Part shown: positions 24,534 through 38,900 of the stretch, piece after piece
Layout: every line of letters begins with the position of its first letter
Position numbering within the stretch: the first letter of the stretch is position 1
The notes under the pieces: model-generated
Seen by the model: the letters and a program-made list of their open reading frames with translations, nothing else
Database searches by the model: none
Told to the model about the DNA's origin: nothing
Position numbers and translations under genes: made by a program
Source: Magnetococcales bacterium
GTDB taxonomy: Bacteria > Pseudomonadota > Magnetococcia > Magnetococcales > JADFYX01
Length of the DNA stretch: 64,000 nt
Assembly (NCBI GenBank): GCA_002753565.1
Contig: PEAM01000001.1
Coordinates: forward strand, 124,001 to 188,000
Direction of reading: 5' to 3'

Positions 24534-24756
24534 CCTTCTCTTCTTTACTCCCCCCTTCTTACCCCTGTCTCTCCAGCCTTTCCCCCCGGTCTTTCTGAAT
24601 AGGATGACCCGTTAAATCGGAGAGATGATCCTCTTTTTTCACCAGGTTGGCAGAGATAAAAACAGCGTGAACAAGGAAAATTCATAGTATTGCGGCCTCT
24701 AGTTTGTTAAGAGTATGATCTCACTATCGATAACTGCAACTTTAAGTCAGGAACCC

Positions 24757-26100
24757 ATGGAAGTTACAATCAAAGAAAAAGAAGGTTTTGAGCGTGCCAT
24801 TACTGTCCGTATAGAAGCAAAGCGGGTGGATGAACTGATTGGGCAGGAGTTGGGAAGACTCTCGGCTCAGGTCAACTTGCCGGGATTTCGTCCTGGCAAG
24901 ACCCCGGTCAAGTTGCTGGAGTCTCGTTATAAGGACCATATAAACGGCTCGGTCGCCGAGCAGTTGATCCAAGAGAGCTACGCCAAGGCGCTGACGGAGA
25001 ATAAGGCCAATCCAGCCGATCGGCCAACAATGGAGGTCGGTCAGGTGGTTCGCGGAGAAGATTTTTCTTATACCGCCACCTTCGAACAGATTCCCGAGGT
25101 CAACCCAGAGGGGTATAAGGGGCTCTCCCTGAGTCGGATAACCGCCACGGTTGAAGAGTCGGATGTCGATAAGGTGATCGAGCAGATTCGGGAACAGAAC
25201 ACCAAGTTTGAGGTGGAAGAGGGTCGTGTTGCCCAGTCGGGAGACCAGGTCAAATTGGATTTTGACGGCTCCATCGACGGTGTTCCCTTCAATGGCGGAA
25301 AAGCGGAGGGGCATGAGTTGGTCCTGGGAAGCGGGCAGTTTATTCCCGGTTTTGAAGATCAGGTTATCGGTGCCAAAGCGGAGAGCGATGTGGATGTCAC
25401 GGTCAACTTTCCCGACAATTATCAAGCGGACCATCTGGCGGGTAAAGAGGCCCTTTTTAAATGTCGGATTCACGAGGTTCGGGCTCCTGTGGCACCGGAA
25501 GTCAATGATGATCTGGCTGTAAAGGCCGGCATCCAAGAGGGGGGTGTGGCCAAACTGCGTGAAGAGATCGCTGCCAAACTCAAGACAGAAGCCGACGGCA
25601 AGAGCGAGAGTGAAGTCAAGAAATCCATTCTAGACCAAATTCTTAAAGCCAACCCCATAGAGATTCCCCGCTCTTTGATCAAGCGGGAGCAGGAGGGGAT
25701 GGTTGAGCAGCTTAAACAAGAGTATAAGCGGCAGGGGGTGGACCCGGCCATGCTCAACATGAAAGACGAAGATCTGGCGGCCGGATTCGAAAAAGAGGCC
25801 GCCAAGCGGGTGAAGGTTGGCATGCTGTTGGGTGCCATTGCCCGGGTTGAGTCCATCGAAGCCACTGAGGAGGCGGTGGATGCCTTTTTAGACAGTATGA
25901 CCGCATCGTATGGCGACCAAGCCTCTGCCATGCGTAAATGGATGAAAGAGGACCCAGAGCGTCTTGAGGGTGTTCGGAGTACGGTCTTGGAGACCGCCAT
26001 CATTGACTGGATCGTCAATAATGGTACGGTCGAAGAAAAAAGCAGTACCCTTGAGGAGTTAATGTCTCAGAAGGAAGATCAGGACGATCAAGAGGCCTGA
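24757..26100 (+). CDS. tig: Trigger factor (ribosome-associated chaperone)
   Basis: A peptidyl-prolyl isomerase and chaperone that binds nascent chains at the ribosome exit. The 447-residue product has the ribosome-binding N-domain with the signature LPGFRPGKTPVKLLESRY. The FKBP-type domain around residues 150-245 includes DQVKLDFDGSIDG and the ELVLGSGQFIPGFEDQVIG block. A helical C-terminal domain follows. The start at 24757 is chosen because AGGA lies close upstream and the conserved sequence begins there; an in-frame ATG at 24715 would add 14 residues. It heads the conserved tig-clpP-clpX-lon-hupB string. Confidence 0.96.
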   Translation: MEVTIKEKEGFERAITVRIEAKRVDELIGQELGRLSAQVNLPGFRPGKTPVKLLESRYKDHINGSVAEQLIQESYAKALTENKANPADRPTMEVGQVVRGEDFSYTATFEQIPEVNPEGYKGLSLSRITATVEESDVDKVIEQIREQNTKFEVEEGRVAQSGDQVKLDFDGSIDGVPFNGGKAEGHELVLGSGQFIPGFEDQVIGAKAESDVDVTVNFPDNYQADHLAGKEALFKCRIHEVRAPVAPEVNDDLAVKAGIQEGGVAKLREEIAAKLKTEADGKSESEVKKSILDQILKANPIEIPRSLIKREQEGMVEQLKQEYKRQGVDPAMLNMKDEDLAAGFEKEAAKRVKVGMLLGAIARVESIEATEEAVDAFLDSMTASYGDQASAMRKWMKEDPERLEGVRSTVLETAIIDWIVNNGTVEEKSSTLEELMSQKEDQDDQEA

Positions 26101-26151
26101 ACGATTCGGCAAAAGATGCCGGAGAGGTAAAAGGGGAGGGGTGGAGTTTGT

Positions 26152-26220
26152 GCCCTGAAAAATAGTACGGCCTTGTTGTTTCTTTTTTTAAACAGTTGGT
26201 TATGTAAGATTTTTCAGGGC
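26152..26220. repeat. 12-bp perfect inverted repeat between tig and clpP
   Basis: GCCCTGAAAAAT (26152-26163) and ATTTTTCAGGGC (26209-26220) form a long stem with a 45-base internal loop. TTTTGCCCTTTTTG follows, so it can act as a terminator of tig. It leaves clpP with its own promoter in the remaining 119 bases, where I could not identify a convincing sigma-70 or heat-shock element. Confidence 0.6.
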
Positions 26221-26339
26221 TTTTGCCCTTTTTGCCGTATTTGGTGTGAATTGTGCAATCCCACCCGATAACTGTTACAGTCGCCCTGTATGAATGGGGT
26301 CGTCACCACTCTGCCTAATCGTTAAAGAAGAGAGCGCCG

Positions 26340-26939
26340 ATGAATTTGGTTCCTATGGTGGTGGAAACCACCAACCGCGGAGAGCGGTCCTATGATATCT
26401 ATTCCCGTCTACTCAAAGAACGACTTATCTTTTTGGTTGGTTCCATCAACGATAATGTCGCCAACCTGATTATTGCCCAGTTACTTTTTCTTGAGTCTGA
26501 AAATCCCGAAAAAGATATCCATCTCTATATTAACTCTCCGGGAGGACATGTGACCGCAGGTATGGCTATTTATGATACCATGCAGTTTATTCGTCCCCAA
26601 GTCAGCACCTTGTGTATCGGTCAAGCCGCCAGTATGGGCGCGGTTCTTCTGGCGGCCGGCGCAGATGGGAAACGGCTGCTTCTTCCCAACTCCCGAGTGA
26701 TGATTCATCAGCCTCTTGGCGGCTTTCAGGGGCAATCTACCGATATCCAGATCCATGCCAAGGAGATGTTGCGGGTCCGTGAGACCCTCAATCGGGTACT
26801 GGCCAAACACACCGGTCAGACCGTGCGCCGAATCTCCAAGGATACGGAAAGAGACTATTTTATGACCAGTAAAGAGGCCTGTGATTATGGGCTGGCTGAT
26901 CAGGTTATCGATAAACGAGAAGCGCCACTGGAGAGTTGA
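26340..26939 (+). CDS. clpP: ATP-dependent Clp protease proteolytic subunit
   Basis: The serine protease barrel of ClpXP. The 199-residue product has Ser98 in [14 protein letters not shown] and His123 in [10 protein letters not shown], with the DRDYFM-type region ([16 protein letters not shown]) holding the expected Asp. It has the usual length, with a short N-terminus that is probably processed. It lies 138 bases upstream of its unfoldase partner clpX. Confidence 0.98.
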
Positions 26940-27077
26940 ACCAGAAAGGGCGGGCAGGGGTTCCATTACCCTGCTGTTTAGTGACTGAAACGAGAGCGTG
27001 TTGTATCCGGGCACCCCTGATGAATCCATGGGTTTGAGGTCTGCCCAGACAGGAAACTTAGAAGTTGAGAGGAAATC

Positions 27078-28349
27078 ATGGCTAAGAAAAGTTCAGACTC
27101 TGGAAGCGTTCTGCACTGTTCGTTCTGTGCGAAAACCCAACATGAGGTTCGCAAGCTCATTGCTGGACCGTCCGTATTCATCTGTAACGAATGCGTCGAG
27201 TTATGCCGAGACATCATCAAAGAGGAGAAGGGTGAAAAGAGCGAGGGAGACAAAGGTTCCACCGGCGTCCCCCCTCCCCATGAGATTAAAAAAATTCTCG
27301 ATGAGCATGTCATTGGTCAGGAGATGGCAAAAAAAGTGTTGGCAGTGGCTGTTTACAACCACTACAAACGGATGAGTGTTACGGAAGATACCACCAGTGA
27401 TGTTGAGCTTGCCAAAAGCAATATTCTGATGATCGGCCCCACCGGCTCGGGTAAAACCTTGCTGGCCCAGACGTTGGCCCGAATTTTGGACGTTCCGTTT
27501 ACCATCACCGACGCCACCACTCTCACCGAAGCCGGTTATGTGGGTGAGGATGTGGAAAACATTATTCTTCGGCTGCTTCAGGCAGCGGACAACGATGTGG
27601 AGAAGGCGCAACGGGGCATTGTTTTCATCGATGAGATCGATAAAATTTCCCGAAAATCCGACAACCCCTCCATCACCCGTGATGTCTCCGGGGAAGGTGT
27701 CCAGCAGGCGCTGCTCAAAATTGTCGAGGGCACCATTGCCAGTGTACCTCCCCAGGGAGGGCGCAAACATCCTCAGCAAGAGTATCTTCAGGTAGATACC
27801 ACCAATATTCTGGTTATCTGCGGCGGTGCCTTTAATGGCCTGGAGAAGGTGATCGAGCGGCGTTCCAACAAGAGCCATGGCATCGGTTTTGGTGCTCAGG
27901 TCAAGGATAGCTCTGTCGAGTTGAAGGTTAACGATCTGCTGCCAGAGCTGGAACCGGAGGATCTGCTCCAGTTTGGTTTGATACCAGAATTTGTCGGTCG
28001 ACTACCCGTTGTGACCACTCTGGAGGAACTGGATTTGGATGCGTTGGTCCAAATACTGGAGAAGCCCAAGAACGCGTTGCTCAAACAGTACCGCAAACTG
28101 TTCGAGATGGAGAATGTCCGCCTTACCTTTACCGATGAGGCGATTCAGGCCATTGCCGCCAAATCCATCAAACGCAAGACCGGCGCCCGTGGACTGCGAT
28201 CCATTTTGGAGTCCATCCTGCTGGATGTCATGTTTGATATTCCTGCCAAACCGGATGTCCGGGAGGTGGTTATCAATCAGGAGGTTGTCGAAAATGAAGC
28301 AGAACCCCTTTTGATCTATGAAGAGACACGCCTAGAAGCTCAAGCTTAG
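27078..28349 (+). CDS. clpX: ClpX unfoldase, ATP-binding subunit of ClpXP
   Basis: An AAA+ unfoldase that feeds substrates to ClpP. The 423-residue product has the N-terminal zinc-binding domain ([11 protein letters not shown] and [10 protein letters not shown]). The P-loop GPTGSGKT is at residues 120-127, Walker B is VFIDEIDKI, and the ClpP-contacting loop lies near the IGFGAQV segment. The ATG has AGAGG seven to eight bases upstream. The length is standard. Confidence 0.98.
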
Positions 28350-28657
28350 GAGGGATCAAGACAGTCTGTGACTCAACCTGAAGCGCCCACACCCCTTTGA
28401 AAGGTGGACGTTGTCACTCGGTTGGGGCCTGTTGTCAAAGTGCGTTTTGAACGCTCTCCTTTTTCCCCGATTGCGGCAGTTGGCATAATGCGCAGGGTGT
28501 AACAGATTGGTTTGTTGGCTGTAATAGAAAAAAAATCGGCGTCCTCCTGTTTAGGGGCGGTTTTGTTCGTTATGCCAAGAGAATCAGTGGGTTTAGCTTT
28601 GTGTGTGGTAGCCGTTGCCGAGTCTGGGTTTATGAACACCAATGTTGAGGCTTGCCA
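28350..28657 (+). promoter_or_regulatory. Intergenic region between clpX and lon
   Basis: These 308 bases hold no ORF with a credible ribosome-binding site in either direction. The lon promoter is expected here. I searched for a sigma-32 type CTTG...CCCC pattern and for a TTGACA/TATAAT pair and found nothing convincing. A terminator for clpX is not obvious either, so read-through into lon is possible. Confidence 0.3.
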
Positions 28658-31108
28658 ATGACTATCCCCACTGATTCAGATTTTGGACAATTGATAACCA
28701 TCCCCATTCTGCCGTTGCGTGACATTGTCGTTTTTCCTCAGATGGTGGTCCCCCTGTTTGTGGGCCGGGATAAATCCATCCAAGCCCTGGACGCTGTGAC
28801 GGCCCAGGAAGAGAATCGCCACATTCTTCTGGTTGCCCAGAAAAACCCCTCAACTGATAGCCCTTCCGAGGCTGATATTCATCGAATTGGTGTCATTGGT
28901 TCGATTCTTCAGGTCTTAAAGCTACCCGATGGTACCGTCAAGGTGCTGGTTGAGGGTGGGCGTCGGGTTTACATTGAAAAATTTATCAGCCACACCCCCT
29001 TTTTTGTCGTTGAAGCGCGCAATCTGGAGGAGGATCTCCATAATCCTACCGAAGCCAAAGCGATGATGCGCTCTCTGGTCAGCCGTTTTGAGTCCTATGC
29101 CAAACTCAATAAAAAGCTGGCCCCAGAAGTATTGATGAGCTTTCAATCCATTGATAATCCCAATCGACTGGCCGATATCGCCGCAACCCATATCAACCTG
29201 AAGGTACCCGAAAAGCAGAAACTGCTTGAAATGGTCTCGGTTACAGACCGTCTGGATGGGTTGCTGGTGGCTCTGGAGAAGGAGATTGAGGTTCTTCAGG
29301 TGGAAAAACGGGTTCGGGGTCGTGTCAAGCGGCAGATGGAGAAGAGCCATCGGGACTATTATCTCAACGAGCAGATGAAAGCCATCCAGAAAGAGCTGGG
29401 TGATCGGGATGAAGATAAAGATGAACTGAACGAAATGGCGGAGAAAATTCAGACCATCGGTCTGAGTGAAGAGGCCAAAGCCAAAGCGGAATCGGAGCTG
29501 AAAAAACTCAAGCAGATGGCCCCCATGTCGGCAGAGGCGACGGTTGTTCGCAACTATATCGACTGGCTGATCAAACTCCCTTGGGGTAAATTTTCCGAAC
29601 TGAAGCATGACCTGCCCGAAGCCGAGGCGATCCTGGAAGAGGACCACTGGGGTATGGAGAAGGTCAAGGAGCGGATTATCGAGCAGTTGGCTGTGCAGCA
29701 GAAGGTGGACAAGATTAAAGGCCCCATACTCTGCCTGGTTGGTCCTCCGGGGGTGGGTAAGACCTCCCTGGCCAAATCCATTGCCCGAGCTTCGGGTCGG
29801 GAGTATGTACGGATCTCCCTGGGGGGGATTCGGGATGAGGCAGAGATTCGGGGACATCGGCGAACCTATATCGGCTCTCTGCCGGGAAAAATCATTCAAT
29901 CCATGAAGAAGGCGGGCACCAACAACCCCCTCTTTTTGCTGGATGAGATCGACAAGGTGGGGTCCGATTTCCGAGGGGATCCTTCTTCAGCCCTGCTGGA
30001 GGTTCTGGACCCGGAGCAAAACACCACCTTCAACGATCACTACATGGAGGTGGATTATGACCTCTCCCAGGTGATGTTTATTACAACCGCCAACAGTCTC
30101 AACATTCCTCGACCTCTGCTGGACCGGATGGAGGTGATTCGTCTGGCTGGCTACACGGAGCAGGAAAAATGGCGTATTTCGACCAAATACCTGATTCCCA
30201 AGCAGATGAAGGCTCACGGATTGACGGATGAGGAGTTTACCCTCTCCCACGGGGCGATAAAGAGCATTATCCGCTACTATACCCGAGAGGCGGGTGTGCG
30301 TAACCTGGAGCGGGAGATCGGCAGTCTCTGCCGTAAATCGACCAAGACTCTGCTTATCGATGAAAAGCGCCGGAAGGTGGCGATCAACTCTCAGGGTGTT
30401 GGAAAATATCTGGGGGTGAAGAAATACCGGTTTGGCTTGGCGGAAGAGCAGGATATGGTGGGTGTGACAACCGGCCTGGCCTGGACCGAAGTGGGGGGAG
30501 AGTTGCTCTCGATTGAGGCGGTACTTCTGCCTGGCAAAGGGAAGCTGACCATTACCGGCAAGCTGGGTGATGTGATGCAGGAGTCTGCTCAGGCCGCCAT
30601 GACCTATGCCCGCTCTCGGGCCAAGGATTGGGGGTTGGAAGATGTGGAGTTTTTCCAAAACCACGATATCCACATTCATGTACCCGAAGGGGCAACCCCC
30701 AAGGATGGCCCTTCGGCCGGTATCGCCATCTGCACCACCATAGCCAGTATTCTCACCGGTGTTCCGGTGCGCAGAGATGTGGCCATGACCGGTGAGATCA
30801 CCCTGAGAGGACGGGTGTTGATTATTGGTGGCTTGAAAGAAAAGCTACTGGCGGCCCATCGTGCAGGGATTAAAAATGTTCTTATTCCCCACGAGAATGT
30901 CAAAGACCTGAAAGAGATGCCTTTGACCATTCTGCGTGACTTGGAAATTCATCCTGTGCAGCATCTGGATGAGGTGCTCAAATTGGCCTTGTGCCAGGAA
31001 ACACTTGGATACAAAAAAGAAAACCAGGAGTCAGATGACAAGAAGGTGGAGCCTGCCGTGTTACAAAAAGAGGTGCCCAACCCGGACATGCCATCCATCA
31101 CCCATTAA
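28658..31108 (+). CDS. lon: ATP-dependent protease Lon
   Basis: A homo-oligomeric AAA+ serine protease that removes damaged and regulatory proteins. The 816-residue product has the N-terminal substrate domain ([13 protein letters not shown]), the P-loop [14 protein letters not shown], and the proteolytic domain with Ser686 in PKDGPSAG and Lys729 in [10 protein letters not shown] as the catalytic dyad. The ATG at 28658 has GAGG seven bases upstream. A TTG two codons earlier is not needed. About 40 charged residues after the protease domain form a non-conserved tail. Confidence 0.98.
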
Positions 31109-31158
31109 GTTGTCCTGTCATTAGAGCACTGGGAATGAAAAAAAATCGATAAAGTGGC

Positions 31159-31187
31159 TTGACACTAAGGCTCAAGGCACGTATACA
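31159..31187 (+). promoter_or_regulatory. Sigma-70 promoter of hupB
   Basis: TTGACA at 31159-31164 and TATACA at 31182-31187 with a 17-base spacer, a near-consensus promoter. A start site around 31194 would give a leader of about 155 bases before hupB. It is the best promoter match I found in the window. Confidence 0.85.
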
Positions 31188-31259
31188 ACCTCCTACGTCT
31201 TGCTGAAGCGGTTCACGGATGGTTTAAGGTTTGAGCCTCGAGCAGGAGGAGGTAGTTAA

Positions 31260-31319
31260 ATGAAAGCACCTGTCTGGCAAACCTGCTTCAACGGTTGTCT
31301 GACCCAACCAAACAGGTGA
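31260..31319 (+). CDS. Candidate 19-residue leader peptide upstream of hupB
   Basis: ATG at 31260, stop TGA at 31317-31319, with an unusually strong ribosome-binding site (AGGAGGAGG at 31244-31252, seven bases upstream). The product would be MKAPVWQTCFNGCLTQPNR. Its ends overlap a potential stem: CACCTGT (31267-31273) pairs with ACAGGTG (31312-31318), so ribosome position could change folding before the hupB start at 31350. No function is known. It could instead be a spurious ORF beside a structured leader. Confidence 0.5.
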   Translation: MKAPVWQTCFNGCLTQPNR

Positions 31320-31349
31320 ACCCATTAATATCGAGGGGAGGGCAAGACA

Positions 31350-31667
31350 ATGAATAAATCTGAGTTGGTAGACTCCGTTGCTGCAGAGACTGGATTGACC
31401 AAAGTACAATCGGCTGAAGCTGTCGATGCCGTAATCAACTCTATCCAGTCCACACTGAAAGCTGGCGATCAGGTTAGTTTGGTTGGGTTTGGTACCTTCC
31501 TGGTTACAGATCGGGCTGCACGAGTAGGTCGCAATCCACGTACGGGAGAAGAGATTAAAATTCCTGCTGCCAAATTGCCAAAATTTCGCCCAGGCAAAGG
31601 TTTGAAAGATGCGGTTGCCGTACCAGTAAGCACCAGCAGCAAGAAAAAGAAGAAGAAGAAAAAATAG
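31350..31667 (+). CDS. hupB: HU-family DNA-binding protein with polylysine tail
   Basis: A nucleoid-associated protein that bends DNA as a dimer. The first 90 residues are a complete HU: MNKSELVDSVA, the dimer core, VGFGTFLV, the beta-arm GRNPRTGEEIKIPA, and KFRPGKGLKDAV. The protein then continues with VPVSTSSKKKKKKKK, an eight-lysine tail absent from classical HU. It has a strong ribosome-binding site (GGGGAGGG). As in many proteobacteria it follows lon. Expression is probably driven by the promoter at 31159-31187. Confidence 0.96.
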   Translation: MNKSELVDSVAAETGLTKVQSAEAVDAVINSIQSTLKAGDQVSLVGFGTFLVTDRAARVGRNPRTGEEIKIPAAKLPKFRPGKGLKDAVAVPVSTSSKKKKKKKK

Positions 31668-31714
31668 GAGACTTACTGTTTCGAGCAACGTTTTAGTCCA
31701 TCCCGTATGGGATT

Positions 31715-31790
31715 GGGCGGGTAGCTCAGCTGGGAGAGCGTCGGCCTTACAAGCCGAATGTCACAGGTTCGAGCCCTGTTCCGCCCACCA
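31715..31790 (+). tRNA. tRNA-Val (anticodon UAC)
   Basis: A full 76-base cloverleaf with a seven-pair acceptor stem (GGGCGGG with TCCGCCC) and the D-arm TAGCTCAGCTGGGAGAG. The anticodon TAC is at 31748-31750, the T-arm is GGTTCGAGCCC, and CCA is encoded at the 3' end. Confidence 0.97.
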
Positions 31791-31868
31791 TTTTTAAAAC
31801 GTCGTTGAGAAGCTTTGTTAGTTTGGGCCACACCTTTTTTTGATGAGTGGGTGGCCCTAAAATTGGAT

Positions 31869-31945
31869 GGGGGCGTAGTTCAGTTGGTTAGAATGCCGGC
31901 CTGTCACGCCGGAGGTCGCGGGTTCGAGTCCCGTCGCTCCCGCCA
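31869..31945 (+). tRNA. tRNA-Asp (anticodon GUC)
   Basis: A 77-base cloverleaf with acceptor GGGGGCG paired with CGCTCCC and D-arm TAGTTCAGTTGGTTAGAA. The anticodon GTC is at 31903-31905, the T-arm is GGTTCGAGTCC, and CCA is encoded. It lies 78 bases after tRNA-Val and is probably in the same transcript. Confidence 0.97.
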
Positions 31946-32027
31946 TTTTTAAAATTTTAAATCCGTTTCTCGTTAAAGGGATTGAAAAAATTTTAATTTT
32001 CATTCAAAAATAGATGTTACAACGTTG

Positions 32028-32064
32028 GGTAAGCCGGATTTATTTCGGGCTTACCTTTTTTTTT
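32028..32064 (+). terminator. Terminator after the tRNA pair
   Basis: GGTAAGCC (32028-32035) and GGCTTACC (32048-32055) form a perfect 8-bp stem followed by nine T. It ends the hupB/tRNA unit ahead of the citrate lyase genes. Confidence 0.9.
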
Positions 32065-32202
32065 ATCGGTAGATTTCCTTTATATTTTTAATTTCAGCAT
32101 AAAAAAAACTTGTTCATGATAAAGAGAGATAAAGGCAAAAATACCTAACAGAGGTTTGCAGAGAGTCTGCAACCGGCACATGATGAGTGAGGAGCCGCAC
32201 TG

Positions 32203-33474
32203 ATGCAAATTACAGGCATGAAATGGGGGGCTAAACTGCTCAAGTATGTTGATTTCCCCACCGCAGAGATTCTTCCAGCAGAAGCGACACCCGAACAGAT
32301 TCAGGCCATGATCGATAAACATGGCGGGCTGATGGTCAAGCCTGTTTTCAAGGGTGGAATCGGGAAGAAAGGTAAAGCAGGTTTACTCGGTATAGCTCGG
32401 GATCTTAGAACAGCTCTCAAAGAGAAAGAGCGCCTCTATTTTGCTGAACACCGTCATGGCAACACCTTTGCCAAATCGGATGGTGTCACCTTTGAAGCTT
32501 TTGTTGAGGCAGAGCATGAAATCTATGTCTCCATCACAGACAACACCCTCTTCAGAGCGCCAACCCTGACCATTACCCACCACGGTGGCATGGATATCGA
32601 AGAGCTGTCTAAAGATCAGATAGCGGTTGTCCCTTTTGATACTTTGACGGGTCTCAAGGGTTTTATTGTCAATAACGCCCTGCAAAAAATGGGTGCTCCC
32701 AACGAAATTATCAGCCCTTTGGTTCAGAATATTACCAAACTTTGGGACCTTTTCAACGGCTATGGCATGACCACCTTGGAGCTGAATCCGATTCGGATGC
32801 GGCGCAATGACAAAGGAAGGTTGGAGCCGATTGCCTGTGACTTTAAATGTGCGTTCGATACCGATGATCGCAACCGTTTCCGTCTGAACCTCCCCAGTGA
32901 CTTGGACTCTCAAGATCTTTCTGATTACGAGTTGGAGGTTAACCAACTGCGTACCTATCAGGGGCAGTCGGATGTCACCATTGTCAACCCGGCTGGAACC
33001 ATTACAGCCATGACTTTTGGTGGTGGAGCCAACGCCCTGGTGACAGAGCTTTTAGGCGATTCTGCGACCATATCCTCCGACTTTGGCGGTAATCCTCCCT
33101 ACCAAAAAATGTTTGAAATCAGTCGGATTACCTATAAACACTGGCTGTCTCAAACCAACGTTCTCTTTTTTATCGGTGGTAAAGCCAACAATACCGATAT
33201 CTATGAAACCTTCCGAGCCATGGCGGATGCCTTGAGGGAGTATTTCAGCGAGAACGGACCCACACCACTCTACGTGCTGGTAGGACGGGGAGGGCCTAAT
33301 GTGATTCGGGGTATGGGGTATGTGAAAGATACCCTGGATAGCCTGGGGATTCCCTACGCCATGTTTGGCTATGACTCGGCTATGAGTGAAGTGATTAATT
33401 TTGCTCAGGCAACGGATACCTGGATGGCCAGTGGCGGGCGTAAAGCCATTGCCGATAAGATGGGCATCAAATAG
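32203..33474 (+). CDS. aclA: ATP-citrate lyase small subunit (ATP-grasp/citrate-binding)
   Basis: With the next gene, cleaves citrate to acetyl-CoA and oxaloacetate using ATP and CoA, the key step of reverse-TCA carbon fixation. The 423-residue product aligns by eye with the N-terminal part of ATP-citrate lyase. It has an ATP-grasp region with LMVKPVFKGGIGKKGKAGL, the metal/ATP block LELNPIRM, then a citrate-binding half with VNPAGTITAMTFGGGAN, FFIGGKANNTDIYETF and VLVGRGGPNVIRGM. The ATG has GAGGAG eight bases upstream. Sequence is divergent from the Chlorobium type. Confidence 0.88.
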   Translation: MQITGMKWGAKLLKYVDFPTAEILPAEATPEQIQAMIDKHGGLMVKPVFKGGIGKKGKAGLLGIARDLRTALKEKERLYFAEHRHGNTFAKSDGVTFEAFVEAEHEIYVSITDNTLFRAPTLTITHHGGMDIEELSKDQIAVVPFDTLTGLKGFIVNNALQKMGAPNEIISPLVQNITKLWDLFNGYGMTTLELNPIRMRRNDKGRLEPIACDFKCAFDTDDRNRFRLNLPSDLDSQDLSDYELEVNQLRTYQGQSDVTIVNPAGTITAMTFGGGANALVTELLGDSATISSDFGGNPPYQKMFEISRITYKHWLSQTNVLFFIGGKANNTDIYETFRAMADALREYFSENGPTPLYVLVGRGGPNVIRGMGYVKDTLDSLGIPYAMFGYDSAMSEVINFAQATDTWMASGGRKAIADKMGIK

Positions 33475-33481
33475 TCAACCG

Positions 33482-33501
33482 ACTCCCCAAAAAAGGGGAG
33501 T
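33482..33501 (+). other. Intercistronic hairpin between aclA and aclB
   Basis: ACTCCCC-AAAAAA-GGGGAGT, a perfect 7-bp stem just after the aclA stop with no T-run. It may slow or process the transcript between the two subunit genes. As a terminator it would be weak. Confidence 0.5.
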
Positions 33502-33579
33502 AAAGGTACCGGTTTGGACACGAAACACCGTTTCGAGGGCCAAACTGGACATTTTGGGTTACAAAATTTGAGGTTAGCC

Positions 33580-36453
33580 ATGACGACGCAAGTGAAGACA
33601 GGGCAGATTGATACGGAATTAAACCGAGGGTTTAACTTTATGACCGCTCGTGGGGAGAGCGAATTTCCCTACTATGTCGGTATTCACTCTCTGGCCGATC
33701 TGGCCACGAAGGAAGACCGGGTTTGTGTTTTGAATATTTTGGGTGGGGAGAGCAGAACGGTTACGCCGACCAGCCATGAATTTTCCGGGGGTAATATTGT
33801 CTGTGGCACCATGCCGGGCCGTTCCGGTTCGGTCATGCAGACCAAGATTGGTGATATTCCCGTTTATAACAACGTTTTAGAGGCGTTGGAGGCAGGCCAT
33901 AACTTTAATGTTGCGGTTGTCTATGTACCACCCTCGGGCGTAAAGGATTCGGTGATTGAGGCGGTTAGGGTCAACCCCAGCCTGAAAAAGATCATCATCC
34001 TGACAGAGAAGGTGAAGGTTAAGCATGCCCGGATGATTCGCCAATATTGCCAATGGCGGGGGGTGGATGTTTTTGGTGCCAACTGTCTGGGCATTGGTGA
34101 TGCCCACAACAAGATTCGTCTGGGTGGCGCCTTGGGTGGTACCGCACCAGAGGAGTCGCTGATTCCCGGATCGGTGGCCATCTATTCCAACTCCGGCAAC
34201 TTTACCACCACCATGGCTACTTACCTGCTGACAGCCGGTTGGGGAACCACGGTCTCCATCTCCTCGGGTAAAGATCTCTACATCCACTATTCCGCCCCTG
34301 AGTTTACCCATGCCATGCACAATGATGACCGCACCAAAGCCATGGTCATGTATATTGAGCCGGGCGGTTATTATGAGAAAGATCTGGAGTTTGAAAAACC
34401 GGTAGTAGCCTGTATCGTCGGGCGTTGGAAGGCAAAGCTGACACGGGCTTGCGGCCATGCAGGGGCGGTGGCTGGCAGTGGTGACAATGCGGAAGCCAAA
34501 GAGGGCTGGTTTTTAGAAAAGTTTGGTGTGAAGGCGATCTTTACCCCAGACTCCCCCACCTGTTCAGCCAAGGGTGCGGTGGTGACCAATATTTCTCATG
34601 TTCCGGCCGCCATGACAGCCGTGATGATGATGAACGGCATGAAGCCCGATTTTGATCCTATCGGTGATCTGACCCCCAAATGTTGGTTCCGAAACGATCA
34701 AGGTCTGGAGTTGCCGGAGGCTATGCAAACGCCGGTTGTAGAGGCCATTGCCCCTTATAATGAGCAGATTGAAGAGCTCTCCAAGCTGGTTGGAACCATC
34801 TTTCCCCGACAAAACATGAAAGATTGTTCAGGTGCCTCTAGAATGGATGCCAAGAGTCAGGTTACCCAGATTCATGGTGTCAGTGTTTTGGATGCCTCCA
34901 CCCGTAGCCTGGAAGAGAATCTGGTTCAATCGTTGGTGCGGGAATACCCTGATGCCAATGGGGCTGCCATGGCCAATGTGGCTTTGAACGCCTTTGTCAA
35001 TCAGAGTGGTACCATAGGTCTGGCCGCCGCTGATGCCGCCCGAGAGGCGGGCAGCAGTCCCAACGCCTGTCTGGCTTCTGCCATTGCCCTGCTGGGTCCC
35101 AAGGAGGCTGAGTCCTCTAAAGAGGTCGTTAACAGTTTGATCGATCTGTTTGGTCGAGCTAAATTGGCCGATGCGGCCGATATCCATTTTGACTATTCTG
35201 CTCAGGTGGAGCAAGCTCTTGCCAGTGAGGTCATTGCGGAGCCTGCCCAAGAGGGCGATTCTGCCGATGCAGATAAGTCGGTTGAGGCGGATGAGGAGAG
35301 TGAAGAGAAGCTCAAGATTCGAGGTATCCTTGTTTCGGAGAAGAGTGGCAAGCGTGGCAAAATGATGCTGGCCGCCTTGGAAGCACGGGGTGTCAAGTCG
35401 GTCTTTATCGATTTCCTTAAAGCCGTTGCCGAGCGGACCGGAGGGGGCTTGCGGGATGTTCAGGTGTTGGGAGCCATTACCTGTCATCTGGCTTGGCGTG
35501 CCTTTATGCGTCGTCGCTTGTCGGTCAATACACTGCTTAACATGCCGTGGCACTTCCGAATCTTCAGCACCTTGGTTGGTGTGGCGGTTCCGGCAGATAG
35601 TCAGGATAAAAAGAGCTTCCGGGGTGAGGATAACGGCATCATCACCAACGACTGGAGCTTTACCGAGACCGCGTTTGCCGCTTTGCTGGGTCGGCGTCCC
35701 AGTGAGGAGGAGAGGTTTGCCTTTTCGGTCTTGCAGGGGCTGTTGATTACCAACGGGCCGGGTACCATTTCAGCTCAGGGCGCCAAAGGGGCGGTGAGTG
35801 CAGACGGACCGGAGGTTCCCGAGCGGATTCAGATCAACAAAGGCTATCTTGGTTTTCTTTCCCATACCGGTTTTGCCCATGGTGGCAATGGATTTGAAGC
35901 CATTGCCTTTTTGATGGAGCGATTCAAAGATGTCGACCTGACCAATCCGGGTGATAAAAACCATGGCCTGGACCTCAAAGCCATGGCAACAGCCTATGCC
36001 AAGGAGTACAAGGTTTACAAAGTTCAAGCCAAGGCGGCGGGTAACTTGGGCTATGCCAAAATTCCCTGTATCAACCATCCGGTCTTCAAAGATAAACCGG
36101 TCAACTTTGATCCTCGTGAGGTGTTTGTTGACGAGCTGTTCAAGGGACGAGGTGAGTACAACATCTTCCAAGATTTCTACCACAACATGGTTCAATCCTT
36201 GAAAGAGACCAAAGTCAGTAAAAACGTCTATTGTGTCAATGTGGATGCGGTGATTGCGGTTATTCTGCTCAAGATGTTGTGGCAACCCTACAAAAGCGGT
36301 GAGATCAGTGGGGATTCATTGGAGAAGGCGGCTTTTACCACCTTCTTGTTTGGTCGGATGATCGGCAGTGCGGCAGAGATTGATGATCACACCAACCGAG
36401 GTCGGAATATGGATACCCGCACCAAGGCGAGTGCCTGTAGCTTTGCCGGGTAG
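33580..36453 (+). CDS. aclB: ATP-citrate lyase large subunit, unusually long form
   Basis: A 957-residue protein, against about 600 for Chlorobium AclB. Residues 1 to about 310 resemble the succinyl-CoA synthetase alpha-like part, with the phospho-His motif GHAGA at His293. The C-terminal 250 residues resemble the citryl-CoA lyase (citrate-synthase-like) domain: GFAHGGNGFEA, INHPVF with His833 (human ACLY His900 position) and VNVDAVIAV with Asp889 (Asp1026). The position expected to match ACLY His845 reads Asn (ITNGPGTIS). Between them lie about 300 extra residues, including an acidic linker near 555-580. The ATG at 33580 has GAGG six bases upstream; an in-frame start at 33514 would add 22 residues. 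Confidence 0.85.
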   Translation: MTTQVKTGQIDTELNRGFNFMTARGESEFPYYVGIHSLADLATKEDRVCVLNILGGESRTVTPTSHEFSGGNIVCGTMPGRSGSVMQTKIGDIPVYNNVLEALEAGHNFNVAVVYVPPSGVKDSVIEAVRVNPSLKKIIILTEKVKVKHARMIRQYCQWRGVDVFGANCLGIGDAHNKIRLGGALGGTAPEESLIPGSVAIYSNSGNFTTTMATYLLTAGWGTTVSISSGKDLYIHYSAPEFTHAMHNDDRTKAMVMYIEPGGYYEKDLEFEKPVVACIVGRWKAKLTRACGHAGAVAGSGDNAEAKEGWFLEKFGVKAIFTPDSPTCSAKGAVVTNISHVPAAMTAVMMMNGMKPDFDPIGDLTPKCWFRNDQGLELPEAMQTPVVEAIAPYNEQIEELSKLVGTIFPRQNMKDCSGASRMDAKSQVTQIHGVSVLDASTRSLEENLVQSLVREYPDANGAAMANVALNAFVNQSGTIGLAAADAAREAGSSPNACLASAIALLGPKEAESSKEVVNSLIDLFGRAKLADAADIHFDYSAQVEQALASEVIAEPAQEGDSADADKSVEADEESEEKLKIRGILVSEKSGKRGKMMLAALEARGVKSVFIDFLKAVAERTGGGLRDVQVLGAITCHLAWRAFMRRRLSVNTLLNMPWHFRIFSTLVGVAVPADSQDKKSFRGEDNGIITNDWSFTETAFAALLGRRPSEEERFAFSVLQGLLITNGPGTISAQGAKGAVSADGPEVPERIQINKGYLGFLSHTGFAHGGNGFEAIAFLMERFKDVDLTNPGDKNHGLDLKAMATAYAKEYKVYKVQAKAAGNLGYAKIPCINHPVFKDKPVNFDPREVFVDELFKGRGEYNIFQDFYHNMVQSLKETKVSKNVYCVNVDAVIAVILLKMLWQPYKSGEISGDSLEKAAFTTFLFGRMIGSAAEIDDHTNRGRNMDTRTKASACSFAG

Positions 36454-36470: not shown

Positions 36471-36505
36471 AAAAAAGGCCGCTTTTTAAAGCGGCCTTTT
36501 TTTTT
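36471..36505. terminator. Bidirectional terminator after aclB
   Basis: GGCCGC and GCGGCC around an AT-rich centre, flanked by six A on the left and nine T on the right. The stem can extend through the A/T runs. It lies 18 bases after the aclB stop. Confidence 0.92.
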
Positions 36506-37022: not shown

Positions 37023-38900
37023 ATGAGTGGTGCCAAAACAGAAACCGATGAGGCCAGAGATTTTCTCCAGGCCCACCCCCTTTTTTCCAAGCTCCCTACC
37101 GAGGCCCTGGCCTCCCTTGCAGACCAGGTGGTTCGTATCCATCTGACGCCAAACCAGCTTTTCACCCCTGCCCAGGGTCCGAAAGAGTGGCTCTATTTGA
37201 TTTACCATGGCACCATGGGAATCCAAGGGGGCAACAGCCCGTCGATCAGCCAGCTTGGTGCTGGAGAACTTCTTGAAATGGAGAGGTCTCTCTCCGGTCA
37301 TGAAGGTGAGTCGGTGCCGGTAACCGCCAAATGTTTGGATGCAGCCCTTATTTTTCAAATTCCCGCCAAGGAGCTCTCCGCCCTTGTTGCCAAGCAGCTA
37401 TCTGGTGATGAGCAGGATGAACGGAGTACCGGAGACCGGCTGCGTGAGGCCATGGAGAGCGAGCAGCAAGAGTATGCGACCCCGGCCGGAAATTTTTTAA
37501 CCCTGCCTATCCGAGACCTTATTCAGCGCAAACCGATCTCGATGAGTCTGGATGACTCCATTCGTGACGTGGCAAAATCGATGAAGAAAAACCGGGTAAG
37601 TTGCATGTTGCTGCTCAAAAACGGCAAGCTGGCTGGTATTGTAACGGATCGGGATCTGCGTTGTCGGGTTTTGGCGGATGGTGTCTCTCGCAAGCAGCCT
37701 GTTTCCAAGGTGATGACCGCCTCTCCCCTGACGGTGGATATTGATGCTTATGGTTTTGAAGCGCTGATGTTGATGTCCCATAACAATATCCATCATGTGC
37801 CGGTATTAATGAAGGGCAAGCCGGCTGGGGTGATTACCACCACCAATATGCAGCAGTGTCAAACAACCTCCTCGGTATTTTTGGTGGGGGATGCTTATAA
37901 ACGCAACTCGATCAGTGGGTTGCGGATGATAGCCAAGCGTATTCCAGAGTTGATGAGCGGTCTGGTGCAGGGGGGCGCATCGCCCCATGCTACCGGTCAG
38001 ATGGTGACCACAGTGACCGATGCCATTAACATTCGTCTGTTACAGATGGCAGAAAAAAAACTGGGACCACCCCCTGTTCCCTACGCCTGGATGGTAGCCG
38101 GATCTCAAGGTCGTCAGGAGCAGACAGCCCAGTCGGACCAGGATAACTGTTTGGTATTGGATAACGATTATGATGCAGAGAAACATGGGGACTATTTCAA
38201 GGCCCTCTCTGAGTTTGTCTGCTCGGGTATGAATGAGGCGGGTTTTGTGTTGTGTCCTGGGGGGATCATGGCCCAGAACAGTGATTGGCGGCAACCTTTG
38301 AAACAGTGGAAAAAATATTTTAATAAATGGGTTACCGAGCCTGACCCGGAGGCGTTGATGCACTCGTGCATGTTTTTCGACCTTCGCTTTGTTCATGGGG
38401 AGCCGGGACTGGCTAAAAGCCTGAAAAAACATGTGAAAAAGCTCTGTAGTCAAAACCGGCTGTTTCTCAGCATGCTGGCCCGAAACTCCATCCTGTTTCA
38501 GCCGCCTCTTGGTCTGTTTAAAAATCTGGTTTTGATTAAAGGGGGAGAAAACAATAAGACCATCAACCTGAAGGTGAACGGCATCATACCGGTTGTTGAG
38601 TTGGCTCGGGTCTACGCGTTGCCCGATACACCCGACTCGGTCAACACCCGTGACCGGCTCACGGCAGCCGCCGAAGGTAAAGAGGTGAGCCGCTGTGATG
38701 TCTTGGATTTGAAAGATGCGTTTGAGTATATCGCCCATACACGCTTGCGCCATCAAGCCAGACAGATTGAGGCGGGTAAAGCGCCCACCAACTTTTTGCC
38801 TGTTTCAGAGCTAAGCCTTTTTGAGCGTAACCACCTCAAAGATGCCTTTACCCAGATACAAGATATGCAGTCTGCTCTCCAGCGCCGCTATAATATTTAG
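37023..38900 (+). CDS. cNMP-binding/CBS-pair/DUF294 nucleotidyltransferase-like protein
   Basis: A cytosolic 625-residue signalling protein with three parts. Residues about 10-120 form a cyclic-nucleotide-binding-like domain. Residues about 160-285 form a CBS pair (two RDLI/VMTASPLTV-type repeats), which usually senses adenine nucleotides. From about 340 there is a DUF294 nucleotidyltransferase-like domain with G360-S-Q-G-R-Q-E and D372-Q-D374, then the DUF294 C-terminal domain. The GS...DxD residues that bind metal in this fold are kept. The substrate is unknown for this family. It follows the citrate lyase genes but is separated by a terminator and a repeat. Confidence 0.85.
   Translation: MSGAKTETDEARDFLQAHPLFSKLPTEALASLADQVVRIHLTPNQLFTPAQGPKEWLYLIYHGTMGIQGGNSPSISQLGAGELLEMERSLSGHEGESVPVTAKCLDAALIFQIPAKELSALVAKQLSGDEQDERSTGDRLREAMESEQQEYATPAGNFLTLPIRDLIQRKPISMSLDDSIRDVAKSMKKNRVSCMLLLKNGKLAGIVTDRDLRCRVLADGVSRKQPVSKVMTASPLTVDIDAYGFEALMLMSHNNIHHVPVLMKGKPAGVITTTNMQQCQTTSSVFLVGDAYKRNSISGLRMIAKRIPELMSGLVQGGASPHATGQMVTTVTDAINIRLLQMAEKKLGPPPVPYAWMVAGSQGRQEQTAQSDQDNCLVLDNDYDAEKHGDYFKALSEFVCSGMNEAGFVLCPGGIMAQNSDWRQPLKQWKKYFNKWVTEPDPEALMHSCMFFDLRFVHGEPGLAKSLKKHVKKLCSQNRLFLSMLARNSILFQPPLGLFKNLVLIKGGENNKTINLKVNGIIPVVELARVYALPDTPDSVNTRDRLTAAAEGKEVSRCDVLDLKDAFEYIAHTRLRHQARQIEAGKAPTNFLPVSELSLFERNHLKDAFTQIQDMQSALQRRYNI

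Follow-up and report, generated by a model that had tools for sequence, protein, structure and literature searches.

For ATP-citrate lyase (ACL), it is a matter of dispute whether cleavage takes place in the citrate-synthase-like module or whether this module merely moves CoA. The question can be addressed with a pair of genes in the 64,000-nucleotide stretch of a Magnetococcales genome analysed here (contig PEAM01000001.1, positions 124,001 to 188,000 of the forward strand; the window). The small- and large-subunit genes lie adjacent and in tandem, both on the + strand, at window positions 32203–36453, and specify an ACL in which an asparagine replaces a histidine of the corresponding module of human ACL (ACLY). 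With a probability of roughly 0.7, we read the pair as a type II ACL that uses CoA and ATP to convert citrate into acetyl-CoA and oxaloacetate, that serves the reductive tricarboxylic acid (rTCA) cycle in this organism, and in which cleavage occurs in the second of two copies of the citrate synthase homology (CSH) domain, the first copy being a structural partner.

A type II ATP-citrate lyase gene pair

The small subunit (423 aa; 32203..33474, + strand) consists of an ATP-grasp and a citrate-binding domain, which match Pfam ATP-grasp_2 (E 1.7e-14) and Citrate_bind (PF16114; E 1.5e-17), and its GGKANNTD and GRGGPN motifs are conserved in the family alignment. The large subunit (957 aa; 33580..36453, +) contains a synthetase-alpha module, a degenerate CSH copy and a catalytic CSH copy; we took as its start the ATG at 33580, with which the residue numbers of a preliminary description of the locus agree, and not the longer TTG open reading frame from 33514. 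The acyl-CoA synthetase module spans residues 43–323 (33706..34548, +), resembles the alpha subunit of succinyl-CoA synthetase (SCS) and the small subunit of citryl-CoA synthetase (CCS), and matches NCBIfam PRK05678 (E 9.5e-37) and PDB chain 6hxq_A (E 3.6e-31). It includes the phosphohistidine His293 of the GHAGA motif (34456..34458, +; human His760) and Glu143 (34006..34008, +), which is placed at the human Glu599 position through its motif TE(K/G) in an SCS alignment, an equivalence drawn from position and not from direct alignment to the human protein. Both residues are invariant in the 34 proteins of our conservation set, which includes homologues at only 50–55% identity. Within the small subunit, Asn329-Asn330-Thr331 (33187..33195, +) were located in alignments and their codons checked; Asn330 aligns with the position of human ACLY Phe347, where CCS also has an asparagine.

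Of the regions that the preliminary description had expected of an ACL, Citrate_bind, ATP-grasp and the phospho-His of GHAGA (His293) were recovered in this way. It was also right to place the pair far from the Chlorobium type, as both subunits find their best PDB match in 6hxq, the two CCS subunits of Hydrogenobacter thermophilus (large subunit, E 3.6e-31; small subunit, 6hxq_B, E 2.3e-30), with weaker matches to ACL chains. These best matches evoke an origin of type II as an independent fusion of CCS and citryl-CoA lyase (CCL); in the small-subunit tree, however, type II groups with type I ACL versus CCS plus SCS (support 92/90), on very long branches, and such a fusion is no more than a possible origin.

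The nearest relatives of the pair come from Magnetococcales, followed by Thiotrichales/Chromatiales-like metagenome-assembled genomes. We retrieved 26 loci at 60–83% identity, from Magnetococcales, Thiomargarita, Chromatiales and other Gammaproteobacteria, and a small citrate-binding subunit directly followed by the large subunit occurs in the window and in 21 loci. The name type II ATP-citrate lyase was reportedly coined by Huegler & Sievert in 2011. The enzyme has been described from Magnetococcus marinus MC-1, from the symbionts of Riftia, Tevnia and Lamellibrachia, and from Thioflavicoccus (PMC3522073, PMC6315080, PMC6783814), and the gene pair of strain MC-1 is named Mmc1_3638/3639 (PMC6783814). 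Nearest relatives and the MC-1 pair agree with the earlier assignment to the type II enzyme described for Magnetococcus and some symbionts, and the gene pair is a member of this known, little-studied enzyme of magnetotactic bacteria.

Predicted active site of the C-terminal CSH copy

The catalytic CSH copy 2 comprises residues 668–957 (35581..36450, +) and resembles the citryl-CoA lyase family in hhalign comparisons (E 2.9e-12). Its residues 681–949 match the NCBIfam citryl-CoA lyase model PRK06224 (E 5.8e-7), which was matched by 22/22 aligned family members, with Pfam Citrate_synt matched by 18 of the 22. Direct hidden Markov model searches of the PDB yielded only weak citrate synthase N-terminal matches for the CSH region and no match of substance for the middle region, and profile-profile comparison was required for both. 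AlphaFold models reached a mean pLDDT of 61.6 for the full-length large subunit and of 61.5 for residues 575–957; both are weak, with a poorly modelled active-site region, and served for fold searches only. The model of residues 575–957 matched the citryl-CoA lyase of H. thermophilus best among PDB entries (6hxp; E 2e-5, probability 1.00). ACL chains and (2-methyl)citrate synthases made up the rest of its top-50 matches, all from the same superfamily.

To map active-site positions, we aligned a profile of the type II C-terminal domain to one built from 31 citryl-CoA-lyase-like proteins, either including human ACLY or not, and in both Viterbi and MAC modes (four runs). Human numbering was read off by script from a CSH sequence identical to the PDB entries and starting at residue 835; it places Cys at 845, the His of ADHG at 900, the His of GIGHR at 975, Arg at 976, the Asp of NVDG at 1026 and Arg at 1065, in agreement with the published numbering of H900, R976, D1026 and R1065 (PMC10115795). 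All four runs gave the same mapping, with Asn725 at the His900 site, His767 at Phe935 and the His of the citryl-CoA lyase HGG motif, His833 at His975, Arg846 at Arg986 and Asp889 at Asp1026; Arg926 aligned with Arg1065 in three runs and was unaligned in the fourth.

Asn725 (AAC, codon checked; 35752..35754, +; motif ITNGPGTIS) thus takes the place of the His in human ADHGPAVSG. Because it is Asn in 22/22 close relatives and in 34/34 proteins with remote homologues added, the residue is family-wide, and neither chance nor a sequencing error. The preliminary description had pointed to this Asn and had suggested the alignment of type II large subunits at the site; the residue and its correspondence with the ADHGPAVSG His hold in all modes, but it had been assigned to human His845, and human residue 845 is Cys, the His being His900. 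Its further statement that human His900 is kept as His833 fails, since His833 aligns with His975 and His900 is itself the replaced residue, whereas Asp889 was correctly equated with Asp1026. His767 of AHGGNG (35878..35880, +; codon checked), which occupies the citrate synthase His274 site, is absent from that description, as are the tandem CSH copy and the homologues in heterotrophs treated below. Like it, His833 (36076..36078, +), Arg846 of DPRE (36115..36117, +), Asp889 (36244..36246, +) and Arg926 (36355..36357, +) are conserved in 34/34 proteins.

We take the HGG His, the GYGH His and the NVD Asp to be equivalent to His274, His320 and Asp375 of pig citrate synthase, and the DHG His to its oxaloacetate-binding His238; the positions of pig Arg329 and Arg401 are presumably kept in copy 2 as well. 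With the numbering so assumed, equivalents of His274, His320 and Asp375 are all present in the profile alignment (His767, His833 and Asp889). On that basis, type II appears to keep the full catalytic triad of citrate synthase, unlike human ACLY, with one substrate-binding residue changed, and His767-His833-Asp889 together with Arg846 and Arg926 form a putatively complete citrate-synthase-like site. The type II active site looks closer to that of citrate synthase or citryl-CoA lyase than the human one does. Because the catalytic CSH copy keeps His767, a catalytic histidine that human ACLY lacks, the change from His to Asn at the His900 site is not, as far as sequence can indicate, the sign of a broken enzyme. 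The earlier suggestion of a lyase chemistry different from that of the textbook enzyme retains a genuine Asn as its basis, but it is weaker than first put: the residue had been misnumbered, it corresponds to the oxaloacetate-binding His of citrate synthase and not to His274, and the His274 site, lost in human ACLY (Phe935), holds the invariant His767. In all, the residue mapping replaces a false alarm, that of a broken catalytic His, with a precise and checkable one.

A natural parallel to type II is the stand-alone lyase of a ccsA-ccsB-ccl cluster from another proteobacterium (locus L040, 3126–6453, genome G001), which has Ala at the His900/DHG site and keeps the HGG His. We also observed a group of citryl-CoA-lyase-like proteins from Pseudomonadota (L077, L083–L085, L092, L096, L098–L101, L104 and L105) that keep the EHG His and have lost the HGG His (VILGA/VVLGS), a loss of the same kind as in human ACLY.

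A degenerate first CSH copy

At 957 residues, the large subunit exceeds the Chlorobium alpha chain (617) by about 340, and residues ca. 440–672 (34897..35595, +) contain a degenerate, citryl-CoA-lyase-like first CSH copy. Residues 400–672 matched the lyase family over 174 columns with a score of 56.2 (E 1.4e-7; maximum of 100 column shuffles, 21.7), and the C-terminal copy of the same protein with a score of 75.2 (E 2.5e-10), which none of 100 shuffles reached (maximum, 22.7); these E-values are from single comparisons, and the weight rests on the column shuffles. The matched segments run in preserved order against both the lyase and copy 2. At the catalytic positions, copy 1 has Gln475 for the DHG-His, Glu509 for the HGG-His and Val627 for the NVD-Asp, and in place of the GYGH loop it has a variable linker (residues ca. 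550–585; 35227..35334, +), delimited from the alignment and from low pLDDT at 551–578, that is absent or short in relatives. The large subunit carries a tandem CSH duplication whose first copy has decayed, with the loss of every catalytic position. Citrate synthases and the ACLY core contain this domain paired with a further copy of it; for this reason, the dead copy 1 would most likely be a built-in structural partner, for instance in an intramolecular pseudo-dimer.

Genome setting and distribution

The genome contains a citrate synthase gene and only one citrate-binding subunit, and no RuBisCO was found in it. Other rTCA genes are clustered on another contig, and include those for a fumarate-reductase-type flavoprotein and its Fe-S partner, sucCD, and 2-oxoacid and pyruvate-type oxidoreductases (OGOR, POR). 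A TfrA-type fumarate-reductase flavoprotein with an extra N-terminal part of ca. 105 residues and a separate Fe-S protein adjoins sucCD/oxidoreductase genes (L160, 8595–10991, contig C90 of genome G000). The citrate lyase pair follows tig-clpP-clpX-lon-hup in the window (24715–36453) and in loci L004, L008, L009 and L027; in Magnetococcales it is thus found behind a proteostasis cluster, and not with the other rTCA genes. The sampled genomes of one Magnetococcales family (f4), near-complete ones included, yielded no full-length match to type II ACL, and absence of the pair from one family-level group has already been reported (PMC6783814). No type I ACL was found in Pseudomonadota among 399 sampled genomes.

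A translated search of plasmid records retrieved 19 full-length homologues (50–55% identity) on megaplasmids or plasmids, which, where annotated at all, appear just as "CoA-binding protein" or "hypothetical protein". Their hosts (L147–L158) are heterotrophic soil or plant-associated bacteria of the genera Paraburkholderia, Caballeronia, Microvirga, Sinorhizobium, Aminobacter, Gemmobacter and Polymorphobacter. For instance, tripartite tricarboxylate transporter genes adjoin the pair in two Microvirga species, and its neighbours in Gemmobacter are tcuAB, a tricarboxylate transporter and a YciA-type thioesterase. Likewise, DctA and a symporter that scores 760.9 bits for the TcuC family (cut-off, 445) accompany the pair of Paraburkholderia sp. 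PGU19, in a gene order shared by P. aromaticivorans and Caballeronia, and Polymorphobacter encodes a citrate:cation symporter-like protein ca. 7 kb from the pair (412.7 bits, below the cut-off of 549). Several of the plasmid homologues thus adjoin tricarboxylate or tricarballylate transporters, and these neighbours support citrate or a close tricarboxylate as the substrate, independently of the rTCA argument and outside CO2 fixation.

In the window, the two-gene unit is closed by a terminator-like inverted repeat followed by a T run (GGCCGCTTTTTAAAGCGGCC; 36477..36505, +), recognized by direct reading of the sequence; a consensus terminator scan did not list it, its loop being shorter than the scan permits. 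Directly downstream of the pair there is a gene for a CBS-domain protein with DUF294 nucleotidyltransferase domains (37023–38900), a possible candidate regulator.

Proposed mechanism and alternative explanations

The steps of the synthetase half, from ATP through the phosphohistidine and citryl phosphate to citryl-CoA, are common to ACL and CCS. From the observed architecture, duplication and residue identities, we infer the following reaction, residue roles and pseudo-dimer. ATP on the small subunit would phosphorylate His293 of the large subunit, the phosphate would move to citrate held by the small subunit, forming citryl phosphate, and CoA would displace it to give citryl-CoA, with Glu143 at the human Glu599 position. 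Citryl-CoA would then be cleaved in the C-terminal CSH copy by His833 and Asp889 with His767, while Arg846 and Arg926 would hold the oxaloacetate part and Asn725 may fill the substrate-binding role of human His900. The catalytically dead copy 1 would partner it structurally, possibly within the same molecule.

Several observations weigh against this scheme. The models are too weak for side-chain geometry (pLDDT 61.6 and 61.5), there are no citrate-related neighbours at the Aminobacter and S. fredii homologues, and the tricarballylate genes beside the Gemmobacter pair allow a related substrate. Additionally, human ACLY data place cleavage in the synthetase module and give the CSH an allosteric role (PMC10115795). 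Extended to type II, this last model is the alternative that survives best, although we consider it unlikely: cleavage would occur in the synthetase module, both CSH copies would be allosteric or structural, and the His/Asn differences would be uninformative on chemistry. The human D1026A and R976E data (PMC10115795) and the invariance of Glu143 (34/34) fit such an arrangement. Against it stand the complete citrate-synthase-like residue set of copy 2, with the His that ACLY lacks, and, mildly, the Asn found here at the site of Phe347, which is central to the human model; CCS, whose product is cleaved by a separate lyase, has Asn there too.

It is rather improbable that the pair acts as an ATP-dependent acyl-CoA synthetase/lyase on an acid other than citrate, such as 2-methylcitrate, tricarballylate or citramalate, as might be suspected from the tcuAB tricarballylate genes and the PrpF/4-oxalomesaconate tautomerase adjoining the Gemmobacter and Microvirga pairs. 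Tricarballylate is catabolised via aconitate to citrate, and these neighbours would fit citrate too. The Citrate_bind domain with its GG(K)ANNTD and GRGGPN motifs, the rTCA setting in a genome with no other citrate-cleaving enzyme, and the citrate cleavage detected in MC-1, where no other citrate-cleaving genes were found (PMC6783814), speak for citrate instead.

We are still more doubtful that the lyase step is impaired or lost through the Asn at the His900 site, the pair then being mainly a citryl-CoA synthetase whose product is cleaved by another protein or in a slow side activity. CCS is the best solved-structure match of both subunits, and human His900 contacts the CoA site (PMC10115795); yet neither this genome nor the sampled Magnetococcales contain a separate citryl-CoA lyase gene above the family cut-off, His767, His833, Asp889, Arg846 and Arg926 are invariant in copy 2, with copy 1 as an example of what decay looks like, and the lyase of the ccsAB-ccl cluster also has no His at this site (Ala) and keeps the HGG His. 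Finally, the low identity (13–17%) and the lack of Pfam or PDB sequence matches for residues 440–672 could be ascribed to a chance resemblance between alanine-rich helical regions, with no tandem copy, but this is hardly compatible with scores of 56 and 75 where shuffles reached no more than 22 and 23, with a score of only 15 for the reversed profile, with matches to the lyase and copy 2 in the correct order, or with residues 580–672 alone matching the corresponding part of copy 2 (56 vs a shuffle maximum of 27).

Comparison with known systems

The family name, the rTCA setting, and the closeness to CCS-CCL and to fused Planctomycetes forms were already known (PMC3522073, PMC6315080, PMC6783814, PMC5459899), and what appears new is the anatomy of type II relative to the structurally known ACLs. 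The tandem CSH, the combination of a His274-site His and a His900-site Asn, and the transporter-associated branch in heterotrophs are unmentioned in the literature searched, which did not cover Huegler & Sievert 2011, Williams 2006 and Verschueren 2019. With one dead and one complete copy, another arrangement of histidines and a CCS-like synthetase module, type II makes the disputed role of the citrate-synthase-like module testable by single-copy mutation. We judge the chances to be about even that type II ACL is a structurally distinct citrate-cleaving machine, in which a dead CSH copy pairs in-chain with a live citrate-synthase-like one, and that heterotrophic soil bacteria have also acquired it to break down citrate or tricarboxylates; since these bacteria would use the same machine, it would be no marker of autotrophy. 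Type II ACL genes have been read as evidence of CO2 fixation through the rTCA cycle, and such a reading needs care now that Paraburkholderia, Microvirga and Gemmobacter are seen to have them next to tricarboxylate transporter genes.

With the type II ACL of MC-1 and the symbionts, the pair shares the two-gene order, the lineage and the rTCA setting, and there is no family-level difference. Type I ACL (human ACLY; Chlorobium limicola, 6hxj; Methanothrix, 6hxi) has in common with it the ATP-grasp/citrate-binding half, the phosphohistidine, and a CSH with equivalents of His975, Asp1026, Arg986 and Arg1065, but shows very low sequence identity and a single CSH after the synthetase-alpha module; type II has a second, degenerate copy, and its residues at the His900, Phe935 and Phe347 sites are Asn, His and Asn, respectively. 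The CCS/CCL system provides the best sequence match of both synthetase subunits and the best fold match of the CSH, and shares the HGG His and the Asn at the Phe347 site; in type II, however, the synthetase small subunit and the lyase are fused, the lyase domain is doubled, and the small-subunit tree, with its very long branches, does not place the enzyme inside CCS. Citrate synthase, lastly, shares with CSH copy 2 what we take to be the His274, His320, Asp375, Arg329 and Arg401 positions of the pig enzyme, from which type II differs by Asn at the presumed His238 position, by the fusion to a CoA-synthetase module and by its putative cleaving direction.

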